DNA of 9,417 bases from an uncultured Mycoplasmatota bacterium (GTDB taxonomy: Bacteria > Bacillota_I > Bacilli_A > RF39 > UBA660). This document shows positions 1-9,417 of the stretch, piece by piece. The notes under the pieces are model-generated. The model worked only from the letters and a program-made list of their open reading frames with translations, did not search any database and was not told the DNA's origin. Numbering within the stretch: the first letter of the stretch is position 1; the number at the start of each line of letters is the position of its first letter. A program made the position numbers and the translations under genes. The stretch is taken from assembly GCA_947643295.1 (NCBI GenBank), contig CANRVM010000040.1, positions 1-9,417 of the forward strand, given 5' to 3'.

Positions 1-499
1 TATTGCAAATTTTGCAACAGTTCAAAAAGAAGGAATTAGGAAAGTCGAAAGAAATATTGATTATTATAATTTAGATGTAATAATAAGCGTAGGGTACCGT
101 GTTAAATCTTTAGAGGGTGTAAGATTCAGAAAATGGGCAACTGCAAGAATTAAAGAATACATAATTAAAGGATATACTATGGATGATGAGCGTTTTAAAA
201 ATTTAGGCGGTGGAAAATATTTTTATGAATTAATAAACCGCATTAAAGATATCCAATCAAGTGAAAAAGTATTATATAGACAAGTTCTTGATTTGTATGC
301 TACTGCAATTGAATATAATCCTAATGCTCCCGAAACTATAAGATTCTTTAAAATTGTGCAGAACAAATTCCATTTTGCAGCACATGGAAACACTTCCGCA
401 GAAGTTATCTATAATCGTGCTGGTGCAGACAAGTTATTTTTTCATCCGATGTTGCAAAATAATATAAAACGGAAACAAGAGTTATTAATTAAACGATGA
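1..499 (+). pseudogene. RhuM-family protein fragment, open at the left edge and truncated at its C-terminus
   Basis: The frame is open from base 2 and ends at TGA 497-499. The translation matches the middle of RhuM-family (virulence-associated, DNA-binding-like) proteins: an ANFATV stretch, then NLDVIISVGYRVKS, RFRKWAT, a long helical stretch, and a HGNTSAEVIYNRA block around 378-428. Family members are about 330 residues and normally continue past this block for another 100 or so. Here similarity stops near 440 and is replaced by unrelated residues before the stop. The first methionine in the window (179) lies inside the conserved region, so it is not the true start, which is upstream of the window. 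RhuM genes are common in defence and mobile islands; their biochemical role is not established. It is broken at the 3' side; whether the truncated product is made is unknown. Confidence 0.8.
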
Positions 500-691
500 G
501 AAGGAATATTTTGTTTTCAATTAAATATTGAAGAAGGAACCAATTTGAAATCACAATCTGTGACCTCAAGTTTAAGGAATGAAATAGTGCATGGTGGAAT
601 AAGATATTTACCGTATGTTTTAACTGAGCAAGGAATAATGATGTTATCTGGTCTTTTTAAAAGTGATAAAGTGTGGCATCATTTAGTCTAA
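450..691 (+). pseudogene. ORF6N-domain remnant (phage-type DNA-binding protein), N-terminal part missing
   Basis: Reading on in the RhuM frame past TGA 497-499, the translation from about 509 gives FCFQLN, then NLKSQSVTSS, then GGIRYLPYVLTEQGIMMLSG, ending at TAA 689-691. This is the typical second half of the ORF6N domain (the FxFQLT, LKSQ, RYLPYAFTEQG pattern), found in phage antirepressor-like and KilA-N-related proteins. The N-terminal strand-helix part and everything after the domain are missing. A NNIKR stretch at about 450-464 could be the residue of the usual KRNIxRF segment, but that is uncertain. There is no start codon or ribosome binding site of its own. It is a decayed piece joined to the RhuM fragment. 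Confidence 0.75.
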
Positions 692-847
692 AAACTTCCT
701 TAGGATAAAGAAACAAGGTTACTTAAAAAACGTTTTATTTCGAAAAAAGAATGTTATTATGTTAAAATAATGAATAGACTGATGGAGTAATAGGTATTTC
801 TACATACCACGTTGATTGTATTCACAAATAGGAAAGGATAATAGTTA
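692..847. other. Short gap without a gene
   Basis: About 155 bases between the ORF6N remnant and the next RhuM start. AT-rich, with stops in all frames. No convincing promoter: AT-rich hexamers such as TAAAAT at 763-768 exist but lack a matching -35 at normal spacing. A ribosome binding site, AAAGGA at 833-838, precedes the ATG at 848 by 9 bases, so this upstream end belongs to the second RhuM gene. Confidence 0.5.
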
Positions 848-1051
848 ATGAATCATAAGTTAATTGGTAATGAAAATAATATAATTTTTTATGAAGATAA
901 GAATAATAATACGAAAGTTGAAGTAAGATTGCTTGATGAGGATGTATGGCTAAATGTTAATGCAATTGCTACTTTATTTAATGTGCAAAGACCTGCGATT
1001 GTGAAGCATATTAGTAATATATACAAAGATGAAGAACTTGATAAAAGTTGA
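848..1051 (+). pseudogene. RhuM-family protein, N-terminal fragment only (second copy)
   Basis: 67 residues starting at ATG 848 behind AAAGGA. The translation matches the start of RhuM-family proteins: IIFYEDKNNNTKVEVRLLDE, VWLN, the helix-turn-helix-like segment around TLFNVQRPAIVKHI, then SNIYKDEELDKS. Full-length relatives carry on here with a VxANFAT stretch and some 270 more residues. In this copy the frame meets TGA at 1049-1051, and homology ends at the S codon 1046-1048, which is where a perfect palindrome begins. The gene is therefore a 3'-truncated remnant. It is a different copy from the fragment at the left edge, which begins near the same family position where this one ends, although that coincidence may only reflect where the window was cut. 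Confidence 0.8.
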
Positions 1052-1511
1052 ACTTGTTCCAAAATGGAACAAGTTCAACTGGAAGGAAATAGAAGAGATT
1101 CTAAAAATAAATGGTTTTGATGATATTCGAGAGTATCCAGAATGGGTTTCGATAGATTTTATAAGAAGAGGAAAACCAGCTCATTTATTTACAAGAGAAG
1201 AACTAGAGCAAGAAATAAAAAAGGCCGATGATCGTGTTTCAAATCAACTAATAATTGATGAAAATGGGTATGTTAAGGTAACTAGAAATGAAGGTTATGG
1301 AAAATTGTATCTAGTACGATTTGAGCAATGGGATGCTGGAAATAGATATGTCGGAAAGTATGCAGATTTATCCTTATTTAACGTTCTTTACCTAGTAGCA
1401 TTAGATGGTTGGTTGAATTATTTGAAAACAGGAAGGGGACAATATATGGATGATTATGATAAAGAATTAAACGAAGAAGAGTTAATAAAAGAAATAAAAA
1501 AACACTATTAA
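1029..1511 (+). CDS. Hypothetical protein, probably 5'-truncated and fused to RhuM sequence
   Basis: 160 codons ending at TAA 1509-1511. I do not recognise the family. The protein is soluble and charged, with many Trp and Tyr (FNWKEIEEILK, EYPEWVSIDF, a DENGYVKV segment, YLVRFEQWDAGNRYVGKY, ALDGWLNYLKTGRGQ) and an acidic helical tail. The only ATG (1029) has no ribosome binding site and sits inside the RhuM fragment in another frame. The first five or six codons are thus out-of-frame RhuM DNA, and the next eleven or so are the palindrome. The native start was probably lost when the junction formed. Translation, if any, would depend on coupling to the RhuM fragment, whose stop at 1051 overlaps this start by 23 bases. 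Nothing in it suggests a transposase. It could also be an intact small gene with an unusual start. Confidence 0.5.
   Translation: MKNLIKVELVPKWNKFNWKEIEEILKINGFDDIREYPEWVSIDFIRRGKPAHLFTREELEQEIKKADDRVSNQLIIDENGYVKVTRNEGYGKLYLVRFEQWDAGNRYVGKYADLSLFNVLYLVALDGWLNYLKTGRGQYMDDYDKELNEEELIKEIKKHY
1046..1080. repeat. Perfect 16-bp inverted repeat with a 3-base loop at a gene breakpoint
   Basis: Left arm AGTTGAACTTGTTCCA (1046-1061), loop AAA (1062-1064), right arm TGGAACAAGTTCAACT (1065-1080). All 16 positions pair, and pairing stops at the flanking bases. The left arm contains the stop codon of the truncated RhuM fragment and starts where RhuM similarity ends. The right arm lies in the next reading frame, which is open through the whole palindrome. 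It has no T-run after it, so it is not a classical intrinsic terminator. It could be a fold-back junction left by a rearrangement, the end of a small mobile element, or an insertion scar. Confidence 0.9.
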
Positions 1512-1704
1512 AATTTTCTTCCTAAACTTAGCATTTTGTAGCAAAAGTAGAGCAATTGATTAAGTAGATTCTGTTAAAGAAAAAGTTGATAGTGAAGCAT
1601 CGGTTTCTATATATTACTAAAAAAACAATGTATATAATATTACTTGTAAAAGGAGAAAAAGAAATTTATAATAGAACAATAACAATTTCACCATGAATAA
1701 TATA
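1512..1704. other. Non-coding, AT-rich stretch with no recognisable gene
   Basis: Stops occur in every frame. A short open patch near 1574-1620 reads VKEKVDSEASVSIYY before a stop and may be a scrap of a lost gene, but I cannot assign it. A 22-codon frame at 1628-1696 has an ATG but no ribosome binding site and is not called. No terminator hairpin with a T-run was seen. Confidence 0.4.
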
Positions 1705-1733
1705 TTGCATCCATTCCATTGTTATATTATGAT
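1705..1733 (+). promoter_or_regulatory. Sigma-A-type promoter for the GIY-YIG/helicase gene
   Basis: -35 TTGCAT at 1705-1710, a 17-base spacer, and -10 TATGAT at 1728-1733, each one or two bases from consensus. Transcription would start near 1740, giving a leader of about 58 bases. A short inverted repeat (TATAG, 4-base gap, CTATA) lies just downstream at about 1734-1747, over the expected start site, and could be an operator. Confidence 0.65.
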
Positions 1734-1784
1734 ATAGTTAGCTATAAACTTATGGCAAGGTGTAGTTATATCTTTTAAAGAGGT

Positions 1785-1790
1785 AGGTGG
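1785..1790 (+). promoter_or_regulatory. Ribosome binding site of the GIY-YIG/helicase gene
   Basis: AGGTGG, 7 bases before ATG 1798, preceded by another AGG. It supports the start at 1798; no other in-frame start upstream is as well placed. Confidence 0.6.
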
Positions 1791-1797
1791 TAACGCT

Positions 1798-3417
1798 ATG
1801 GAGATAAGATCTTATGATTTCCAAGCTGGAGATTTTAAAAATTGGGAGATTGCTAATCCTTATCATTGTCTTTATATTTTGGAAGGAAAGAAATATATGT
1901 ATATTGGTGAAACCACAAATGTAAAAAGAAGGGCAAAGGAACATAAACAAAAGGTAAAAGAAAAGCGTTATCAATTTCATACGATGCATATAGTAACAGA
2001 TCATCATGCCAATGCGACCATCATGAAACATTATGAATGCCTTTTGACAAGTTTGATGGAGATAGAAGGAAGATATACAATAGTAAGTGAATCTAAATAT
2101 AAATACCTTTTTTATGATAAGAAAAATGAATATGAGTTAAAATTTGATAAATTATGGTTATTACTTGAAAAAAAAGGACTAGTGAGAGAAAAGGAATTTG
2201 ATAATTTGTTAACGATGGAAAAATTTAGTCATTCTCCTTTTAAATTATTAAATGAGGAACAGAAAAATGCACTGAAAGCGATTCTTAATATTTTAAATAC
2301 AAAGGAAGACCAACCAGTAGATAAAAACTATCAAGCAAGACCATTAAAAATTACAGGAATGGCTGGTACGGGAAAAACAGTACTTGCTATTACGCTTTTT
2401 GATTATTTAAAAAGGGATATCCATTTTCATACGAAAAAAATTGCAATTGTGGTTGCGAATCCTTCTTTACGGGAAGAAATAAAATTCACTTTGAAATGTC
2501 TGAATTATGCGAAGAATAATGTCATTGCTCCTATTGATGTAACGAGAAAGAAATACGATATTATCATTTGTGATGAAGCTCATAAATTAAGAAGAAATAA
2601 AAATTTGCATTTTTATTCCAAAGCCTTTCAAAAAGGCAATGAGAGATTGGGACTTGATTATACTCATGATGAGTTAGACTGGATTTTAATGCAGGCAAAA
2701 ACAACAATTTTGTTTTATGATGAAAAGCAAATTGTTTCTCCTTCTGAAATTCCAAAAGAAGTATTTAAAAAGAAGATAGAAACGCAAGAAAGAGGCTATC
2801 GTCCTATTGAGTTAAAAAAACAAATGCGAGTGCAAGCAGGAAGAACATATATAAAGTATATTTATGATATTCTTTATGGAAAAGAACCCGAAAGAAAAAA
2901 ATTTAACAACTATACTCTGCAAATAGTAGATAGCTATCAAGAATTAAATGAAATTATCAAAGAAAAAGAGAAAAAATATGGATTAAGTAGAAAAGCAAGT
3001 GGTTATGGATTTGAATACCGAAATGATAATACCAGTGATTCTCATACGATTTTGATTGACCATACAAAAGCAAAATGGAATACGTGTACAAAGGGTTGGA
3101 TTCGAAAACAAGAATGTAAACAAGAAATTGGTAGTATTTACACACTATGTGGGATTGATTTAAATTACTTAGGACTTATCATTGGACCGGAATTGTATTA
3201 TGATACCAAAGAGAAAAAAATTAAGTTAAATAAAGAAGAATTTTACGATAATGTCGTGAAAAAACAGGAGTCCGATGAAGAAATTTACAACCATGTTTTG
3301 AATGCTTATGGTATTCTTCTAACAAGAGCCATTATGGGAACTTATATCTATATATGTGATGATAATTTAAGAAAATATCTAGAAAAATTTTTTTCATCCG
3401 AAAGAACACAAAAATAA
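1798..3417 (+). CDS. GIY-YIG nuclease fused to a Schlafen-group-3 (DUF2075) DNA/RNA helicase
   Basis: 539 residues. Residues about 20-85 form a GIY-YIG endonuclease domain: LYILE at 25-29 as the GIY element, YIG at 35-37, arginines 44-45 and His49 in the RRAKEH segment, and Glu80 (HYE) as the likely metal ligand, so the active site looks intact. Residues about 150-530 are a superfamily-1-like helicase of the DUF2075 type: Walker A GMAGTGKT at 187-194, Walker B with DEAH at 259-262, a KKQMR motif at 340-344, the EIGSIYTLCGIDLNYLGLII segment near 450, and an LLTR motif near 507-510. The expected action is ATP-driven movement on DNA or RNA coupled to strand cutting in the cytoplasm. It has its own promoter and ends 127 bases before the NACHT gene start, in the same direction. 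Proteins of this family occur often in defence islands; a role in defence is inferred from context, and no target is evident. Confidence 0.88.
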   Translation: MEIRSYDFQAGDFKNWEIANPYHCLYILEGKKYMYIGETTNVKRRAKEHKQKVKEKRYQFHTMHIVTDHHANATIMKHYECLLTSLMEIEGRYTIVSESKYKYLFYDKKNEYELKFDKLWLLLEKKGLVREKEFDNLLTMEKFSHSPFKLLNEEQKNALKAILNILNTKEDQPVDKNYQARPLKITGMAGTGKTVLAITLFDYLKRDIHFHTKKIAIVVANPSLREEIKFTLKCLNYAKNNVIAPIDVTRKKYDIIICDEAHKLRRNKNLHFYSKAFQKGNERLGLDYTHDELDWILMQAKTTILFYDEKQIVSPSEIPKEVFKKKIETQERGYRPIELKKQMRVQAGRTYIKYIYDILYGKEPERKKFNNYTLQIVDSYQELNEIIKEKEKKYGLSRKASGYGFEYRNDNTSDSHTILIDHTKAKWNTCTKGWIRKQECKQEIGSIYTLCGIDLNYLGLIIGPELYYDTKEKKIKLNKEEFYDNVVKKQESDEEIYNHVLNAYGILLTRAIMGTYIYICDDNLRKYLEKFFSSERTQK

Positions 3418-3453
3418 GAAGAGGAGATTGTGAGTTAAAACAATTATATTTTC

Positions 3454-3482
3454 TTGCACTGTTAGATAAATATCGATATAAT
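3454..3482 (+). promoter_or_regulatory. Strong sigma-A-type promoter for the NACHT gene
   Basis: -35 TTGCAC at 3454-3459, a 17-base spacer, and a perfect -10 TATAAT at 3477-3482. Transcription would start near 3489. The region just after it contains an inverted repeat (ATAGG 3484-3488, CCTAT 3498-3502) overlapping the start site, a possible repressor site. It means the NACHT gene need not rely on read-through from the helicase gene. Confidence 0.75.
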
Positions 3483-3483
3483 A

Positions 3484-3502
3484 ATAGGTAATATTTTCCT
3501 AT
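3484..3502. repeat. Small inverted repeat at the transcription start, possible operator
   Basis: ATAGG, 9 bases, CCTAT. It is placed where RNA polymerase would begin transcription from the promoter at 3454-3482. Five-base arms are weak evidence in AT-rich DNA; the placement is the only reason to list it. Confidence 0.3.
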
Positions 3503-3530
3503 CATGAGAGAGGAAGTATGGTAAGAAAAT

Positions 3531-3538
3531 GGAAGGAG
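3531..3538 (+). promoter_or_regulatory. Ribosome binding site that decides the NACHT gene start
   Basis: GGAAGGAG, 6 bases before ATG 3545. The earlier in-frame ATG at 3518 has only AGAGGA with about four bases of spacing. The downstream start is therefore preferred, shortening the product by nine residues. Confidence 0.65.
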
Positions 3539-3544
3539 CTTATT

Positions 3545-6500
3545 ATGAAAGACTGTCAGTTTAAAGATATCGAGAAATATCTTAGGAAAGATGCGAAAAT
3601 TGGAAAGGATATTTTGGATGCCTTTGAAAGTTTATCTGATGCAGCAATTGTTTTTAGTCCGATTGTATTTGGGCCTAAAGCCACTTCTTTATTTCAGTTG
3701 TTGGATGTGAAAGATCGTCTATTTCAATTAGGAAATAAAGTGCTTGACTATATTACCAAGCAGAAAGAAACCGATTATATTAGTAGAACAGAACAATTGA
3801 GGATTGCTTATTCTCTTATTGGTTATACTTCTTACTTTGAGGCTCTTCAAAATAGTATGCCAGAGGATGTTTTAAAAAAGATAAGAGTAAAATTTAGTAA
3901 AAATAGGGAGTTACAAAAAGAAAATTCTGCTTCTTCAGAATTATTAGGAATGGCTTCTACGATGGTAGATAAATCATGTCTGTGTTTTTATACGGATCAT
4001 GTTACTTCTTTTGCGGAGATAAAAAAGCAATTGCTAGAAGTGTATACAAGAGCAACAAAGAATATGTTGGGGCTTATTTTAACGGAGAATATTTACGATG
4101 AAGAAAAAGAAGAGGAGAAAAAAGCTTTAGAAAAAGTAAAAGAGATATTGGATGCAATACCAAAAGATGCTCTTAAAATATACGAAGCACAGTATTTAAA
4201 GTTGGCTGACGAATATGAAGATTTTGCCTACTTTGCTCAATTAAAGAATTTTGAAGGTCTTCATTATGCAATAAAGAAGAATCAAATTGCTATGGATAAA
4301 ATTGCTAATCTTACGGAAGAGATTGATGTAGGACTTAAAAATTTAAATGATATTGTCAACTCCATTGTAACAGATTATCATAGTATTCAAGCACAAGATC
4401 TTATTGATGATTTAAGAAAAAAATATTTGTCCATGATTGAAGAACCTATCATTGATGATAAAGAAATCAGTTCGGACAAAGAAATGATTCCCTTACGGTT
4501 TCCTAGAATAGTAGATGCCTTTATTCCTCAGTCATATAAATGTTTCTCTTATATAAATAAGGATATTAAGCTAGAAGATACTAAGGTTTGGGACCGTGTA
4601 TCCATTCAGTCAAATTTAGATCAGTTTTTCATCCAATATCTTTATTCCATCGATAGTATTAACTATCCACTTATTATTTTGGGACAGCCGGGAAGTGGTA
4701 AATCATTATTAACAAAGGTTCTTTCTGCTCAATTAATGAGTAATTCTTATACCGTGGTACGTATTCCTCTTCGAGAGGTGAATGCAGAAGTTGGTATTGA
4801 TGCTTTAGTAGAAGAACAAATAAGAAAATTAACTAGTAGAACCTTACCTCAAGGATATGGTGAATTTGCTAGTCAGTTTAATGAAAAGCCTTTAACTATC
4901 ATTTTAGATGGATATGATGAACTTCTTCAAGCAAAAGGAGATGTCTTTTCTGGATATCTAGAAAAAGTTCGTACTTTTCAACAAGAGCAAAAGACAATGA
5001 AACGTCCTGTTCGAATCATTATTACTAGTCGAGTTACCTTGATTGATAAAGCAAAAATTCCTCTTCATTCTACGATTCTTCGTTTGATGGAATTTGATGT
5101 CAATCAAAGAAAGAAATGGATGGATATTTGGAATCAGGTCAATGCTGATTATTTTGAAAGAAAGAAGATAAAACCTTTTACACTATCGATAAAGGATGAG
5201 AAGAAGGAAAGTAGTCTTATCGAATTAGCTGAACAACCTTTACTACTTTTGATGCTTGCTCTTTATGATTCCGAAGCAAATGAACTAGGTAAGATGAGTG
5301 ATATGAAACGAACCGAGTTGTATGATAATCTTTTGCGTAGATTCGTTCGTAGAGAAAGAAGAAGATATGTGGTAGGATTTGAAGAGAAAACAGCCATAGA
5401 ACAAGAAAAAATAATTGATCAAGAAATGGAACGTCTTGGAATTGTTGCTATTGGGATGTACAATCGAGAAGAAGTGGTCATCCGTTCTAGCCAATTAGAA
5501 AAAGATTTGGATATATTTAAAGCTCATAGAGAAGATGGCAGTCCTAAACTGAATACCTTAAAAGAATCGGAGTCTGTCTTAGGTGGTTTCTTCTTTATTC
5601 ATCAGTCGATGGCACAAGATATGGAAGATGATAAGGATACTTCGGAGAGTGCTTACGAATTTTTACATAATACATTTGGTGAATTCCTAACAGCTGATTT
5701 TATTTTACGAAATACAGTGAATGAGGTATGTAATATTTATATTGATAGAAAATATAAGTCCTCTAGTTTAGCAAGTCGATTATCCACTACTTCTTCTCTA
5801 AGTTCTAATTGGTTTTATTGTCTTATGTTTGTACCACTTTACTCAAGACCTGTTGTCATTGAAATGTTACGAGAACATATGAAAAAAGCATTAGAACATA
5901 AACTAAAAATTCATGAGTTTCTAGTGGAGATTACAGAAGAGGAATTTGTAGAAAATTTACAATTTTTGATACAAGATCAACTAAATAGTGTCTTAAATAC
6001 AAAAAATATTCCAAGTGTGATGCAAAGTGATATTACTTTAGATTCCGACATGCCTCTAATAGGTTATTTATCTACTTATACACTCAATTTAATTTTACTA
6101 GCAAGTACACTTAGTTCAGACGGTTTCTTATTCAGGGAAGAACAATTCTGTCTTCCTGGTTTGGATGTTTTACAATCTCGTCCTTGGGATAAATTAACTA
6201 CCTTGTGGAAGGCATGGTTTGCTCCTACTGACTTAATGGGGTTATCTGTTATTTTGAAGACAAGACGAAAAAAAGCGGATACCGTTTTAATTACCTGTAA
6301 TGAGAAATTTGAAGCTACTAGATATGAACAACCAATTGATATTTTCCTTTGTGTTTCTTCCACTCTCTCTGATACGTTATCGATTAGTTTATCAGGACTA
6401 CATACCCCACGTTTTCGGGAAATTACAAAGAGAAATCATAGAGAACTTTATCGTATGTTAAAAGAGGAAAACCCTAACTTTTATTTTTCCTATCTTGTTA

Positions 6501-7762
6501 CTTTATTACGAAATGAAATCAATGGCCTACCAGAAAGTAGAAAAAGAGTGGTAGATTGTACTTTCCATTATCAAAAGATCAATCAGCTTATCCGTGATAT
6601 TGTTTTAGATAGGGAAATGGATAAGGTTAATTGTGAAACTTTATTAGATATTTTTGAAATTTTAGAATGTTCGCTAAGAAGAAATGTTGTTTTCTTTTCT
6701 ACTCGTAAAGAAATTTTGGAAGTATTACCCTATATCATAAATCATGTGAGATTTGACCAAAGAAGAATAAATAGATATTCTTCACCAGAAATAATAAGTG
6801 GTGCTTATGTATTACAACTTTTAATGGGAGATGAATTTTTATCTTATTTTTATAAAAATCATTATATAGAACAGGGACTTTTTGATATGGAGTGGGAGGA
6901 TGAATTTCGTAGAACGATGCATTATCTATCTCGTTATATTAGTGTTGATGTTTTCTTTTATGCTAGGAAGGAAGATAGTATTCATCTACCATTTGAAATA
7001 ATGGAAAGATATACAGAATTAAAAAGTAGACATAAAGAAGAGATATTGTTAGAAATGATTTCTTCTACTAATATTGAAATTCTGGTGAAAACAAATCCTA
7101 AAACGTTATCTTGCTTTTTATTAAAATTAAAAGAGGATAAACAGATAAAAAAACGAGAGTTCGCAAGAGTAGTAGATGAATTTTTAATGAGATACTTGGA
7201 TCAATTAGAAACGGTTGGTCCTAAGTTTATCCCACCTAGTTCTATGATAGACGCCATTCAGTTAGCACGTGATACCAATGACCATAAGTTTATCATGCAT
7301 ATTCAAAAGATATTAGATGCTTATCTTTTTAGAGGAAATTTAGGAATGCGTAATTTCTATCAAATATGTTGTATTTATCCTCGTTTTATCATTTGTTTGA
7401 TTGAATTGTTACCAGAGCTTTTTCAAGCCTTGCTTTTTGAATCCGTAGACAGCCCATATTTTGAACGGAATTTTCGATTTGCCAATAGACAAAAGTTATT
7501 TGAGTATATGGAATTACTAAAATCTTTCCATAAATTATCGAAGGAGATTTTTCTTGATTCGAATCAAGCGATGAAGATGTTCCGTGGATTTGACCGGATG
7601 ATAAGTAACACCTTTATAGTGGAGAATCTAGAAGTGGAGCAATTGACAATGAATCAATTACATATTCTAGAATGGTATGCTAAATTTACAAAGAGTAAAG
7701 AGACATCCTTAAAAATAAAGGAATTGTTAAATCAGGAGAATTCTATTGCAAAATATAGTTAG
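3545..7762 (+). CDS. NACHT-domain STAND NTPase (bacterial NLR-like protein)
   Basis: 1405 residues from ATG 3545 (an alternative start at 3518 adds nine). Residues 1 to about 330 are mostly helical with coiled-coil-like charged stretches and no motif I know. A P-loop follows, GQPGSGKS at 380-387, then the NACHT-type Walker B LDGYDE at 454-459 with its extra acidic residues, and the arginine-ending strand RIIITSR at 490-496. After this come the LAEQPLLLLMLALYD helix block and YEFLHNTFGEFL at 704-715, both typical of a NACHT NTPase group also common in actinobacteria. Residues about 715-1405 are a long helical, repeat-like region, probably the sensor, with no recognised fold. NACHT proteins act as ligand-triggered oligomerising switches, and several bacterial ones protect against phage. 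There is no obvious toxin domain, so either the N-terminal region or a neighbour would be the effector. All ATPase motifs appear intact, and there are no frameshifts. Confidence 0.87.
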   Translation: MKDCQFKDIEKYLRKDAKIGKDILDAFESLSDAAIVFSPIVFGPKATSLFQLLDVKDRLFQLGNKVLDYITKQKETDYISRTEQLRIAYSLIGYTSYFEALQNSMPEDVLKKIRVKFSKNRELQKENSASSELLGMASTMVDKSCLCFYTDHVTSFAEIKKQLLEVYTRATKNMLGLILTENIYDEEKEEEKKALEKVKEILDAIPKDALKIYEAQYLKLADEYEDFAYFAQLKNFEGLHYAIKKNQIAMDKIANLTEEIDVGLKNLNDIVNSIVTDYHSIQAQDLIDDLRKKYLSMIEEPIIDDKEISSDKEMIPLRFPRIVDAFIPQSYKCFSYINKDIKLEDTKVWDRVSIQSNLDQFFIQYLYSIDSINYPLIILGQPGSGKSLLTKVLSAQLMSNSYTVVRIPLREVNAEVGIDALVEEQIRKLTSRTLPQGYGEFASQFNEKPLTIILDGYDELLQAKGDVFSGYLEKVRTFQQEQKTMKRPVRIIITSRVTLIDKAKIPLHSTILRLMEFDVNQRKKWMDIWNQVNADYFERKKIKPFTLSIKDEKKESSLIELAEQPLLLLMLALYDSEANELGKMSDMKRTELYDNLLRRFVRRERRRYVVGFEEKTAIEQEKIIDQEMERLGIVAIGMYNREEVVIRSSQLEKDLDIFKAHREDGSPKLNTLKESESVLGGFFFIHQSMAQDMEDDKDTSESAYEFLHNTFGEFLTADFILRNTVNEVCNIYIDRKYKSSSLASRLSTTSSLSSNWFYCLMFVPLYSRPVVIEMLREHMKKALEHKLKIHEFLVEITEEEFVENLQFLIQDQLNSVLNTKNIPSVMQSDITLDSDMPLIGYLSTYTLNLILLASTLSSDGFLFREEQFCLPGLDVLQSRPWDKLTTLWKAWFAPTDLMGLSVILKTRRKKADTVLITCNEKFEATRYEQPIDIFLCVSSTLSDTLSISLSGLHTPRFREITKRNHRELYRMLKEENPNFYFSYLVTLLRNEINGLPESRKRVVDCTFHYQKINQLIRDIVLDREMDKVNCETLLDIFEILECSLRRNVVFFSTRKEILEVLPYIINHVRFDQRRINRYSSPEIISGAYVLQLLMGDEFLSYFYKNHYIEQGLFDMEWEDEFRRTMHYLSRYISVDVFFYARKEDSIHLPFEIMERYTELKSRHKEEILLEMISSTNIEILVKTNPKTLSCFLLKLKEDKQIKKREFARVVDEFLMRYLDQLETVGPKFIPPSSMIDAIQLARDTNDHKFIMHIQKILDAYLFRGNLGMRNFYQICCIYPRFIICLIELLPELFQALLFESVDSPYFERNFRFANRQKLFEYMELLKSFHKLSKEIFLDSNQAMKMFRGFDRMISNTFIVENLEVEQLTMNQLHILEWYAKFTKSKETSLKIKELLNQENSIAKYS

Positions 7763-7864
7763 ATAGTGCTTAGAAATAAAGAAAATAAGAGGAAGTTTTG
7801 ACAAAGGGCATTTTTTAAAAAAGCAGAAACAAAACCCTAGACAGTAGATAGAAGGAATATTATA
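7763..7864. other. Spacer between the NACHT gene and the Nudix-like gene
   Basis: 102 bases. A TTGACA at 7798-7803 looks like a perfect -35, but nothing resembling a -10 lies 16-18 bases downstream. The A/T-rich palindrome around 7811-7822 has no GC stem, so it is not a convincing terminator. Either a weak promoter or simple read-through from the NACHT gene is possible. Confidence 0.4.
7851..7856 (+). promoter_or_regulatory. Ribosome binding site of the Nudix-like gene
   Basis: GAAGGA, 8 bases before ATG 7865, supporting that start over the in-frame ATG at 7886, which has no comparable site. Confidence 0.55.
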
Positions 7865-8317
7865 ATGAATATAGGTGAAGAACGAATGGAAGAAGCAAAA
7901 CATGCAATTTTTATTATTAGAAATAAGGATGGAAAGTATTTACAGTATGATGATATTAGATGGAGGAGTTTCTTATTCTTAAATTGTAAAATCGAGGATT
8001 CCTTTGATAGTAATCAAATAAAAAAATTCCTATGGGAAAAATTAGGTATGGATAAAGATTCCATTTCCGTCCAATTCTTAAAGGATATGGTTCATCAAAA
8101 AATTTCCGTTCCTTCTAACAAAAAAAAGAAGTATCATCATTATTTTTATTTAGTGGAGTTTGATTTAGGAAAGAATATGATGAAGGCTAAATTTAAGTAT
8201 CAAGATATTTCTTATCAATGGTTTACGATGGAGGAGTTACAGAAGAATAAAAGGATACAAGACGTCAATCAGGATATTGTTTCTTATGTGGAAAATTTAA
8301 TGAAGGAAAGGATGTGA
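7865..8317 (+). CDS. Nudix-fold protein with a degenerate Nudix box
   Basis: 150 residues. The layout matches a small Nudix protein: an opening strand [14 protein letters not shown], then [15 protein letters not shown], a helix ending in WEKLGMD, a [12 protein letters not shown] strand, and the closing [12 protein letters not shown] segment typical of Nudix C-termini (WhsxeEL). The Nudix box should read GxxxxxExxxxxxxRExxEExG. Here the equivalent region, about residues 38-60, has Asn-Cys for Gly-Gly and lacks the R-E-x-x-E-E metal-binding core (it reads KKFLWEKLG). Hydrolysis of nucleoside diphosphate derivatives is therefore unlikely. A ligand-binding or regulatory role is more plausible, as seen for other inactive Nudix domains. 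The TGA stop at 8315-8317 is four bases before the deaminase start, so the two are probably co-translated. The fold assignment comes from the pattern only. Confidence 0.65.
8307..8312 (+). promoter_or_regulatory. Ribosome binding site supporting a GTG start for the deaminase gene
   Basis: AAAGGA inside the 3' end of the Nudix-like gene, 9 bases before GTG 8322. The protein similarity begins just after this GTG, so it is the likely native start. Confidence 0.6.
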
Positions 8318-8321
8318 AAAG

Positions 8322-8876
8322 GTGCCAGGAAAAAGAGAATCTTATTTAAATTGGGATGAGTATTTTATGGGGTTAGCCATTTTATCTTCTATGAGGAGCA
8401 AAGACCCTCATAACCCAGTGGGAGCTTGTATTGTAGAAGAAGAAAGTAAGAAAATATTATCGATTTGATACAATGGATTGACGAAAGGGATGAGTGATGA
8501 CACATTTGACTGGAATTCTTCTGGAGAAATAACAGGAAAACCACTCAATATAAAGGACTTTTATATTGTTCATGCAGAGCGTAATGCGATTTTAAATTAT
8601 AGAGGAAATAAGAAGGATTTAGAAGGTTCGACGATGTATGTCACATGGTCTCCATGTACTGAATTTGTGAAAGAAATTGTACAAGTAGGGATAAAAAAAG
8701 TTTATTATCTTCGAGAGTATTCCAAAGAAATACAAAAAATGATAGGTAGACGTATGTTAGATAGTGCAGGAGTAGAATGTATTCCCTATAATCGTGAGAG
8801 AGAAATTACAAAAGAAGAAGTAGTTGCAAATACAGAAGCAATGCAAAAGGTTTTAAAAAGTTTTTCAAAGAGGTAG
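8322..8876 (+). pseudogene. dCMP deaminase, interrupted by an in-frame TGA and lacking one zinc ligand
   Basis: Reading from GTG 8322 through one stop gives 184 residues that follow dCMP deaminase along their length: [35 protein letters not shown], the zinc and proton-transfer motif HAERNAIL (His84, Glu86), SPC (Cys112), and GIKKVYY. In the resemblance to eukaryotic-type dCMP deaminases the closest family features are RSKDP and VGACIV. The enzyme converts dCMP to dUMP, altering pyrimidine deoxynucleotide pools. Codon 49 is TGA (8466-8468) where the family has Gly of GYNG, one base from GGA. The second cysteine of PCxxC is Phe115 (TTT at 8664-8666), one base from TGT. Both are single G-to-T changes and either alone should abolish activity. 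A restart at TTG 8478 or ATG 8490 would omit the first strands. The rest of the frame is open, so decay is recent or the shortened product is kept. Confidence 0.85.
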
Positions 8877-8882
8877 AATAAA

Positions 8883-9417
8883 ATGAATCCAAATCAAATA
8901 ATGAAGAGAATGAACGATATTGAGTATGGTTTTCCGGATGAACATGGTAACAATATTTTAATAGAAAATCCAGAAAAATATGAAGAAGAATTTGATAAGT
9001 TTTATTATTTACAAACTCCAGATGAATTATTACAATCAAAATGTGGTGTATGTTGGGATCAAGTAGAATTAGAAAGAAAATTATTTCAAGATTCCAATAT
9101 CCCATTTAAAACTTATTTCATATATATTGTTGATGGTGATAGGTTACCATCCCATACCTTTTTAACATATAAAGAGGGTGGTAAATATTATTGGTTTGAA
9201 CATTCTTGGGGAAAATATCAAGGAATCCATGAATATCGTAGTAAAGTAGAGTTGTTACTGGATGTGAAAAAACACTTTGAACGAGAACATTCTTATGTTA
9301 GTAGAAATAAACTCTTATTCATTTATGAGTATCAAAAACCAAAAGAACATATTACTTGCGATGAGTTTTATCAATATATTGAAACGCAAAGACTAGTGAA
9401 AATACAGAAACCACTTT
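8883..9417 (+). CDS. Transglutaminase/papain-like cysteine-enzyme fold protein, cut by the right edge
   Basis: 178 codons are visible from ATG 8883 and the frame is still open at 9417. AAAGAGG at 8867-8873 lies 9 bases upstream, and the start is six bases after the deaminase stop, so it belongs to the same gene train. The visible part has a Cys in GVCWDQVELER (Cys57), a His in LPSHTFLTY (His91) and an acidic residue in YYWFEHSW (Glu106). This order and spacing match the Cys-His-acid triad of transglutaminase-like and related papain-fold enzymes, which make or break amide bonds on proteins or small amines. There is no signal peptide or membrane segment, so it should be cytoplasmic. The family is not one I can name; the assignment rests on the motif pattern. 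In this context it could act as an effector or a modifier of a neighbour, which is inference. Confidence 0.65.
   Translation, partial: MNPNQIMKRMNDIEYGFPDEHGNNILIENPEKYEEEFDKFYYLQTPDELLQSKCGVCWDQVELERKLFQDSNIPFKTYFIYIVDGDRLPSHTFLTYKEGGKYYWFEHSWGKYQGIHEYRSKVELLLDVKKHFEREHSYVSRNKLLFIYEYQKPKEHITCDEFYQYIETQRLVKIQKPL

Follow-up and report, generated by a model that had tools for sequence, protein, structure and literature searches.

Does a row of genes for a helicase, a NACHT NTPase and three small proteins make up one defence system, or several units that lie side by side? The question is raised by a stretch of 9,417 nucleotides from an uncultured Mycoplasmatota bacterium (GenBank assembly GCA_947643295.1, contig CANRVM010000040.1, positions 1 to 9,417), the whole of which is called the window here. 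All its genes are on the + strand, in the order RhuM remnant, RhuM-type piece, open reading frame, helicase, NACHT, Nudix-like, deaminase and transglutaminase-like, and the last five, which run from 1798 to the window end, are the coding regions in question. An earlier note on this DNA had proposed that these five same-strand genes, with short gaps between them, form a joined system in which the NACHT protein senses infection, a Nudix-like protein devoid of its catalytic box binds a nucleotide signal, and the deaminase or the transglutaminase-like protein acts downstream. The common strand is confirmed, but the short gaps hold only for the last three genes (4 and 6 bases apart, by gene coordinates), as 100 bases precede the NACHT gene and 102 bases the Nudix-like gene. 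Our analysis indicates that the locus is likely to consist of a stand-alone NLR-like sensor of a known kind, a separate helicase and a separate three-gene unit of host enzymes, rather than a five-part system. The five-gene proposal is thereby narrowed to one testable gene, a member of an NNH7-NACHT family of at least 354 homologues that is unnamed in the PADLOC models used and has no sequence relative among solved structures.

Neighbourhoods of the NACHT relatives

Two peptide patterns were used to scan the genomes of 84,980 species for relatives of the NACHT gene; 80 stretches matched, 35 were kept, and 34 loci form the sample. Three of these encode proteins with 50-54% identity along almost the full length, and 31 are under 40%; three loci that match the NACHT protein over short stretches only (L032-L034) were kept in all counts, and at least 3 kb of flanking DNA was present on both sides in 26 of the 34. 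A tblastn search with the remaining seven window proteins (E <= 0.01) gave no match in the flanks of the 34 loci. When blastp (E <= 1e-5) was used to group the 295 open reading frames within 6 kb of the NACHT loci, no neighbour family was found in more than four of the 34 loci, and the commonest ones, at four loci, look generic by eye (ABC-type and response-regulator-type proteins). Because neither the window proteins nor a recurrent neighbour family accompany it, the NACHT gene appears to be without a steady partner among the relatives fetched, which do not show the shared neighbourhood that a joined system was expected to have. These counts, together with 80 viral deaminase loci that lack the partners (see below), argue against the claim of one joined five-gene system.

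The expected nearness to known defence genes was found for half of the neighbours chosen: five of ten NACHT-neighbour proteins matched PADLOC models at E <= 1e-5. These are a restriction-type helicase upstream of the NACHT relative in L001, a PDC-S01 candidate beside the one in L002, and a type I modification protein, a type I restriction protein and an AriA/GajA-like ATPase near the one in L026. At another locus, L023, the NACHT relative lies within a stretch flanked on both sides by ribosomal protein genes (by eye). A side observation at L001 is a second large NTPase-like protein of 841 amino acids (14860-17385), downstream of the NNH7-NACHT relative, which has no PADLOC match and contains, by eye, pentapeptide-like repeats.

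The NNH7-NACHT protein

The NACHT gene (3518..7762, +) is intact and encodes a STAND-type NTPase of 1414 amino acids; a relative with 93% identity (P0005) begins at the ATG equivalent to 3545. The N-terminal NNH7 domain (PF22738, residues 29-242, 3602..4243) matches Pfam with E 1.6e-20 and 74.7 bits against a cut-off of 27. The ATPase core (4670..5119) carries a Walker A motif, GQPGSGKS, at residue 389 and ITSR at residue 502, both located by pattern, while ILDGYDE (residues 462-468) is invariant across 23 aligned sequences; a stricter Walker B pattern had no match in the protein. NPHP3_N scores above its Pfam cut-off, and NACHT, AAA, AAA_22 and nSTAND3 score below theirs (20.4 bits against 26.7 for NACHT, a family that many of the listed relatives do carry). 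The claim of a NACHT switch is thus borne out by the NNH7 and NPHP3_N matches and by the Walker A and downstream motifs, as in the NTPase core of bacterial NACHT STAND proteins. Among the 7990 candidates scored, at least 354 are homologues, and most of the 120 listed are nearly full length. Across 22 relatives the mean identity to the window residue is, by stretch, 0.51 (residues 1-250), 0.63 (251-380), 0.81 (381-540), 0.73 (541-740), 0.59 (741-1000), 0.31 (1001-1200) and 0.29 (1201-1414). This drop from 0.81 in the NACHT core to about 0.3 at the C-terminus fits a switch with a diversifying sensor, and the probable sensor is accordingly placed in the variable region of residues 1001-1414 (6518..7759).

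An N-terminal domain, a switch and a variable C-terminal region together give the protein a tripartite plan. Passages of a published study describe the bNACHT proteins, NLR-related defence proteins, as composed of a C-terminal sensor, a NACHT module and an N-terminal effector, and some tested members (clade 14) as lacking a discernible effector domain (PMC12169576). The window protein resembles them in its central NACHT-type STAND NTPase, its separate N-terminal domain and variable C-terminus, in being apparently encoded by a single gene, and in the defence-type genes that occur at some loci of its family. It differs from them in having an NNH7 domain at the N-terminus, where no nuclease model matched, and in having no sequence relative among solved structures at E <= 1; the comparison is with bNACHT proteins as a whole. 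The predicted model of NNH7 is all-helical, with moderate confidence (mean predicted local distance difference test score, pLDDT, 65.5), and none of the fold matches found with it was strong enough to assign a function. That the NACHT gene acts in defence is a reasonable proposal. In the model that we favour, the variable C-terminus would sense an infection cue, the NACHT core would bind ATP and drive oligomerisation, and the NNH7 domain, a probable effector or adaptor, would carry the output, which is most likely the death or arrest of the infected cell. If the NACHT protein alone defends against phage, the question becomes the role of this helical domain.

The helicase gene

The first of the five genes (1798..3417, +) is intact and encodes a GIY-YIG and Schlafen group 3 (DUF2075-type) helicase of 539 amino acids, as the earlier note had claimed: PF09848 matches with E 2.2e-60, while the GIY-YIG match (PF01541, E 1.6e-4, 22.3 bits) is slightly below its cut-off of 22.6. 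The key GIY-YIG and helicase motifs are retained by pattern scan, and a PDB sequence search matched Schlafen 5 (E 2.1e-4). At E <= 1e-10 relatives were found in 29 plasmid records, with query coverage of at least 80% in nine; these nine, GIY-YIG/DUF2075 Schlafen group 3 helicases, span 91-98% of the window helicase but are only 24-28% identical to it. Among the papers listed in our literature search none contained DUF2075 and no named system came up, nor did any paper join DUF2075 with 'phage defense'.

Neighbourhoods were inspected for four of the 29 plasmid relatives (L052-L055). The neighbours are a DUF3578 protein and an AAA ATPase in L052, type I modification genes and a nucleotide pyrophosphohydrolase in L053, an HNH endonuclease protein and a DNA adenine methylase in L054, and Cas6 and Cas10 in L055, so that type I modification, Cas6/Cas10 or DNA adenine methylase genes are near three of the four. 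As an observation in its own right, the pyrophosphohydrolase gene of L053 directly follows the DUF2075 helicase gene, beside the type I modification genes (6875-8928). The neighbours of the four relatives suggest that the helicase gene belongs to defence islands and that its partners change. The left half of the window may therefore be a defence island, a part of the earlier claim that is reasonable given that some distant helicase relatives lie beside restriction or CRISPR genes, but this does not extend to a joined system. The helicase gene, which adjoins the NACHT gene on a contig where RhuM genes have decayed, would be a defence-island gene in its own right.

The three small genes

The deaminase gene (8322..8876, +) is broken. 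An in-frame stop (TGA, 8466-8468) interrupts it, and in its PCxxC zinc motif Phe replaces the second Cys, with loss of a zinc ligand. The 3' part of this gene, a dCMP deaminase in the earlier note, matches PF00383 (2e-11). Its closest relative, P0125, is intact and 96% identical, and scores under the cut-off of the ComEB dCMP deaminase model (76.4 of 219.45 bits, over most of its length). Close relatives are intact single-domain proteins of 184 amino acids; homologues number 1636, of which the 120 listed are 50-96% identical, lie on contigs of up to 750,576 bases and include one named from a Bacilli bacterium (P0155). A zinc-binding deaminase core is common to this family and to the anti-phage dCTP deaminases (NF041025, PADLOC dCTPase), from which the family differs in length, its intact members having 184 amino acids and the models 437 and 630, and in score: P0125 reaches 84.2 of 400 bits, in its core, and the 3' part of the window gene 55.1 of 400 bits, both below the cut-off. 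This low score and the broken state of the window gene, itself a further difference, speak against the proposal that the deaminase acts downstream in defence. Eighteen phage records contain deaminases of the window type (E <= 1e-15), none of which reaches 60% identity, and among viral deaminase loci (best 80 of 578, all less than 50% identical) there was no Nudix-like, transglutaminase-like or NACHT relative. Three further relatives, 46-52% identical, were found among 199 genomes (G035, G001, G767), with no Nudix-like or transglutaminase-like relative within their short loci; judged by eye from translations, two are among metabolic genes, including a uracil phosphoribosyltransferase-like gene (G035) and shikimate-pathway-like genes (G001).

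The Nudix-like gene (7865..8317, +) encodes 150 amino acids, although the ATG at 7886 may be the start that it has in common with its relatives. The claim of an inactive Nudix protein stands in that the Nudix box (GX5EX7REUXEEXGU) is absent by pattern scan, but a Nudix fold is only suggested: the protein has no Pfam match and no PDB sequence match, one of four family members has a weak NUDIX match (E 0.14), and alignment of the family profile with a two-sequence Nudix set is collinear without being significant (hhalign P 0.074, probability 0.8%). The AlphaFold2 (AF2) model (pLDDT 43.9) is too poor for a structure search. The family is rare, with three proteins besides the window's own in the protein search, and no genome locus was found for these homologues.

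The transglutaminase-like gene (8883..9416, +) runs to the window end, which lies within or at the end of this gene, and gives 178 amino acids. Its identity as a transglutaminase-like protein is upheld by a DUF553 match (1.8e-4, 21.4 bits against a Pfam cut-off of 20.5) and by the retention of Cys57 and His91, a Cys/His pair that is invariant in four aligned sequences. Relatives were found at four viral loci (L038-L041) on contigs of 50 to 289 kb; three of these loci were aligned, and L039 repeats L038 in the open reading frames listed. The stretch YYWFEHSW, Cys57 and His91 are common to the window and viral-contig proteins. In L038, L039 and L041 the matching region sits inside a longer protein, and in L040 the protein has 193 residues. 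No partner genes were present at the four viral loci or at five weak genome matches.

Weighing the alternatives

Several points weigh against the reading of a stand-alone sensor, a separate helicase and a separate unit of host enzymes. The probable class of the host (Bacilli) is not among the sampled NACHT loci, and five of the ten chosen NACHT-neighbour proteins have no PADLOC match. Neither the PADLOC nor the NCBIfam models used name the NACHT protein, so that its defence role rests on architecture; the comparison with defence-system model collections thus gave no PADLOC system for this protein and a deaminase relative under the cut-off of the anti-phage model. On that model P0125 gains 84.2 bits, more than its 76.4 on ComEB, and both scores fall far short of the cut-offs. 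In the favoured reading the three small downstream genes would form a separate transcription unit, in which the deaminase has decayed here; in favour of this are the 102-base gap before them and a sigma-70-like promoter match (7838..7866, +; 11/12, spacer 17) just upstream, provided that the later Nudix-like start at 7886 is used. It is the only 11/12 match on the + strand of the window, where a Markov model predicts 0.37 per strand, and 0.005 within the gap. This putative promoter is weak evidence for separate transcription, because at least one such match occurs on a strand in 30% of simulated windows, because the overall number of promoter-like matches is what chance would give (56 found, 51.0 expected, sd 7.8), and because the match overlaps the first ATG of the Nudix-like gene. 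Finally, the longest contig listed is 72,450 bases for P0005 and P0125 alike, and the NACHT and deaminase genes are therefore probably linked on one contig in another strain; this linkage is gene-order conservation between close kin and not proof of a system.

The same linkage favours a true multi-gene system acting as in the earlier proposal, as do the common strand and order of the genes and the open frames of the NACHT and Nudix-like genes. We nevertheless hold such a system to be very unlikely, given the absence of the partners and of any recurrent neighbour at the 34 NACHT loci, the broken deaminase, and the three 46-52% identical deaminase relatives without partners, two of them among metabolic genes. 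A shade less credible still is a variant in which the NNH7-NACHT protein recruited a box-less Nudix-like nucleotide-binding partner and a transglutaminase-like partner in this lineage, the deaminase being lost secondarily in the strain. An accessory or prophage-derived cassette made up of the three small genes, with no tie to the NACHT gene and outside core metabolism, is unlikely, although less far-fetched: the viral relatives of the transglutaminase-like protein, the 18 phage records with deaminases and the rarity of the Nudix-like family all point that way, whereas the 120 listed deaminase homologues, with their long contigs and one Bacilli member, and the 80 viral deaminase loci devoid of Nudix-like and transglutaminase-like genes point away from it. 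The adjacency of the helicase and NACHT genes, intact and on the same strand, could reflect a two-gene defence unit with one common output; this is most improbable, since a helicase relative is near none of the 34 NACHT loci and no NACHT relative is near the four plasmid helicase relatives inspected. A stand-alone NNH7-NACHT sensor beside a separate helicase and a separate set of host enzymes therefore remains the reading that we prefer.

Upstream features

RhuM remains upstream of the five genes, as the earlier note had described, are a RhuM-family protein remnant that runs off the window start (2..499, +; PF13310 1.7e-63, PADLOC PDC-S05) and a short RhuM-type N-terminal piece (848..1051, +; PADLOC PDC-S05 5.5e-23, without a Pfam match). 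The two are in separate frames and represent a decayed region. For an open reading frame of 160 amino acids (1029..1511, +), Pfam, NCBIfam, PADLOC and PHROGs gave no match at the thresholds applied. The second RhuM piece ends in a perfect inverted repeat (1046-1080) with arms of 16 bases and a loop of 3 bases; no T run follows it.

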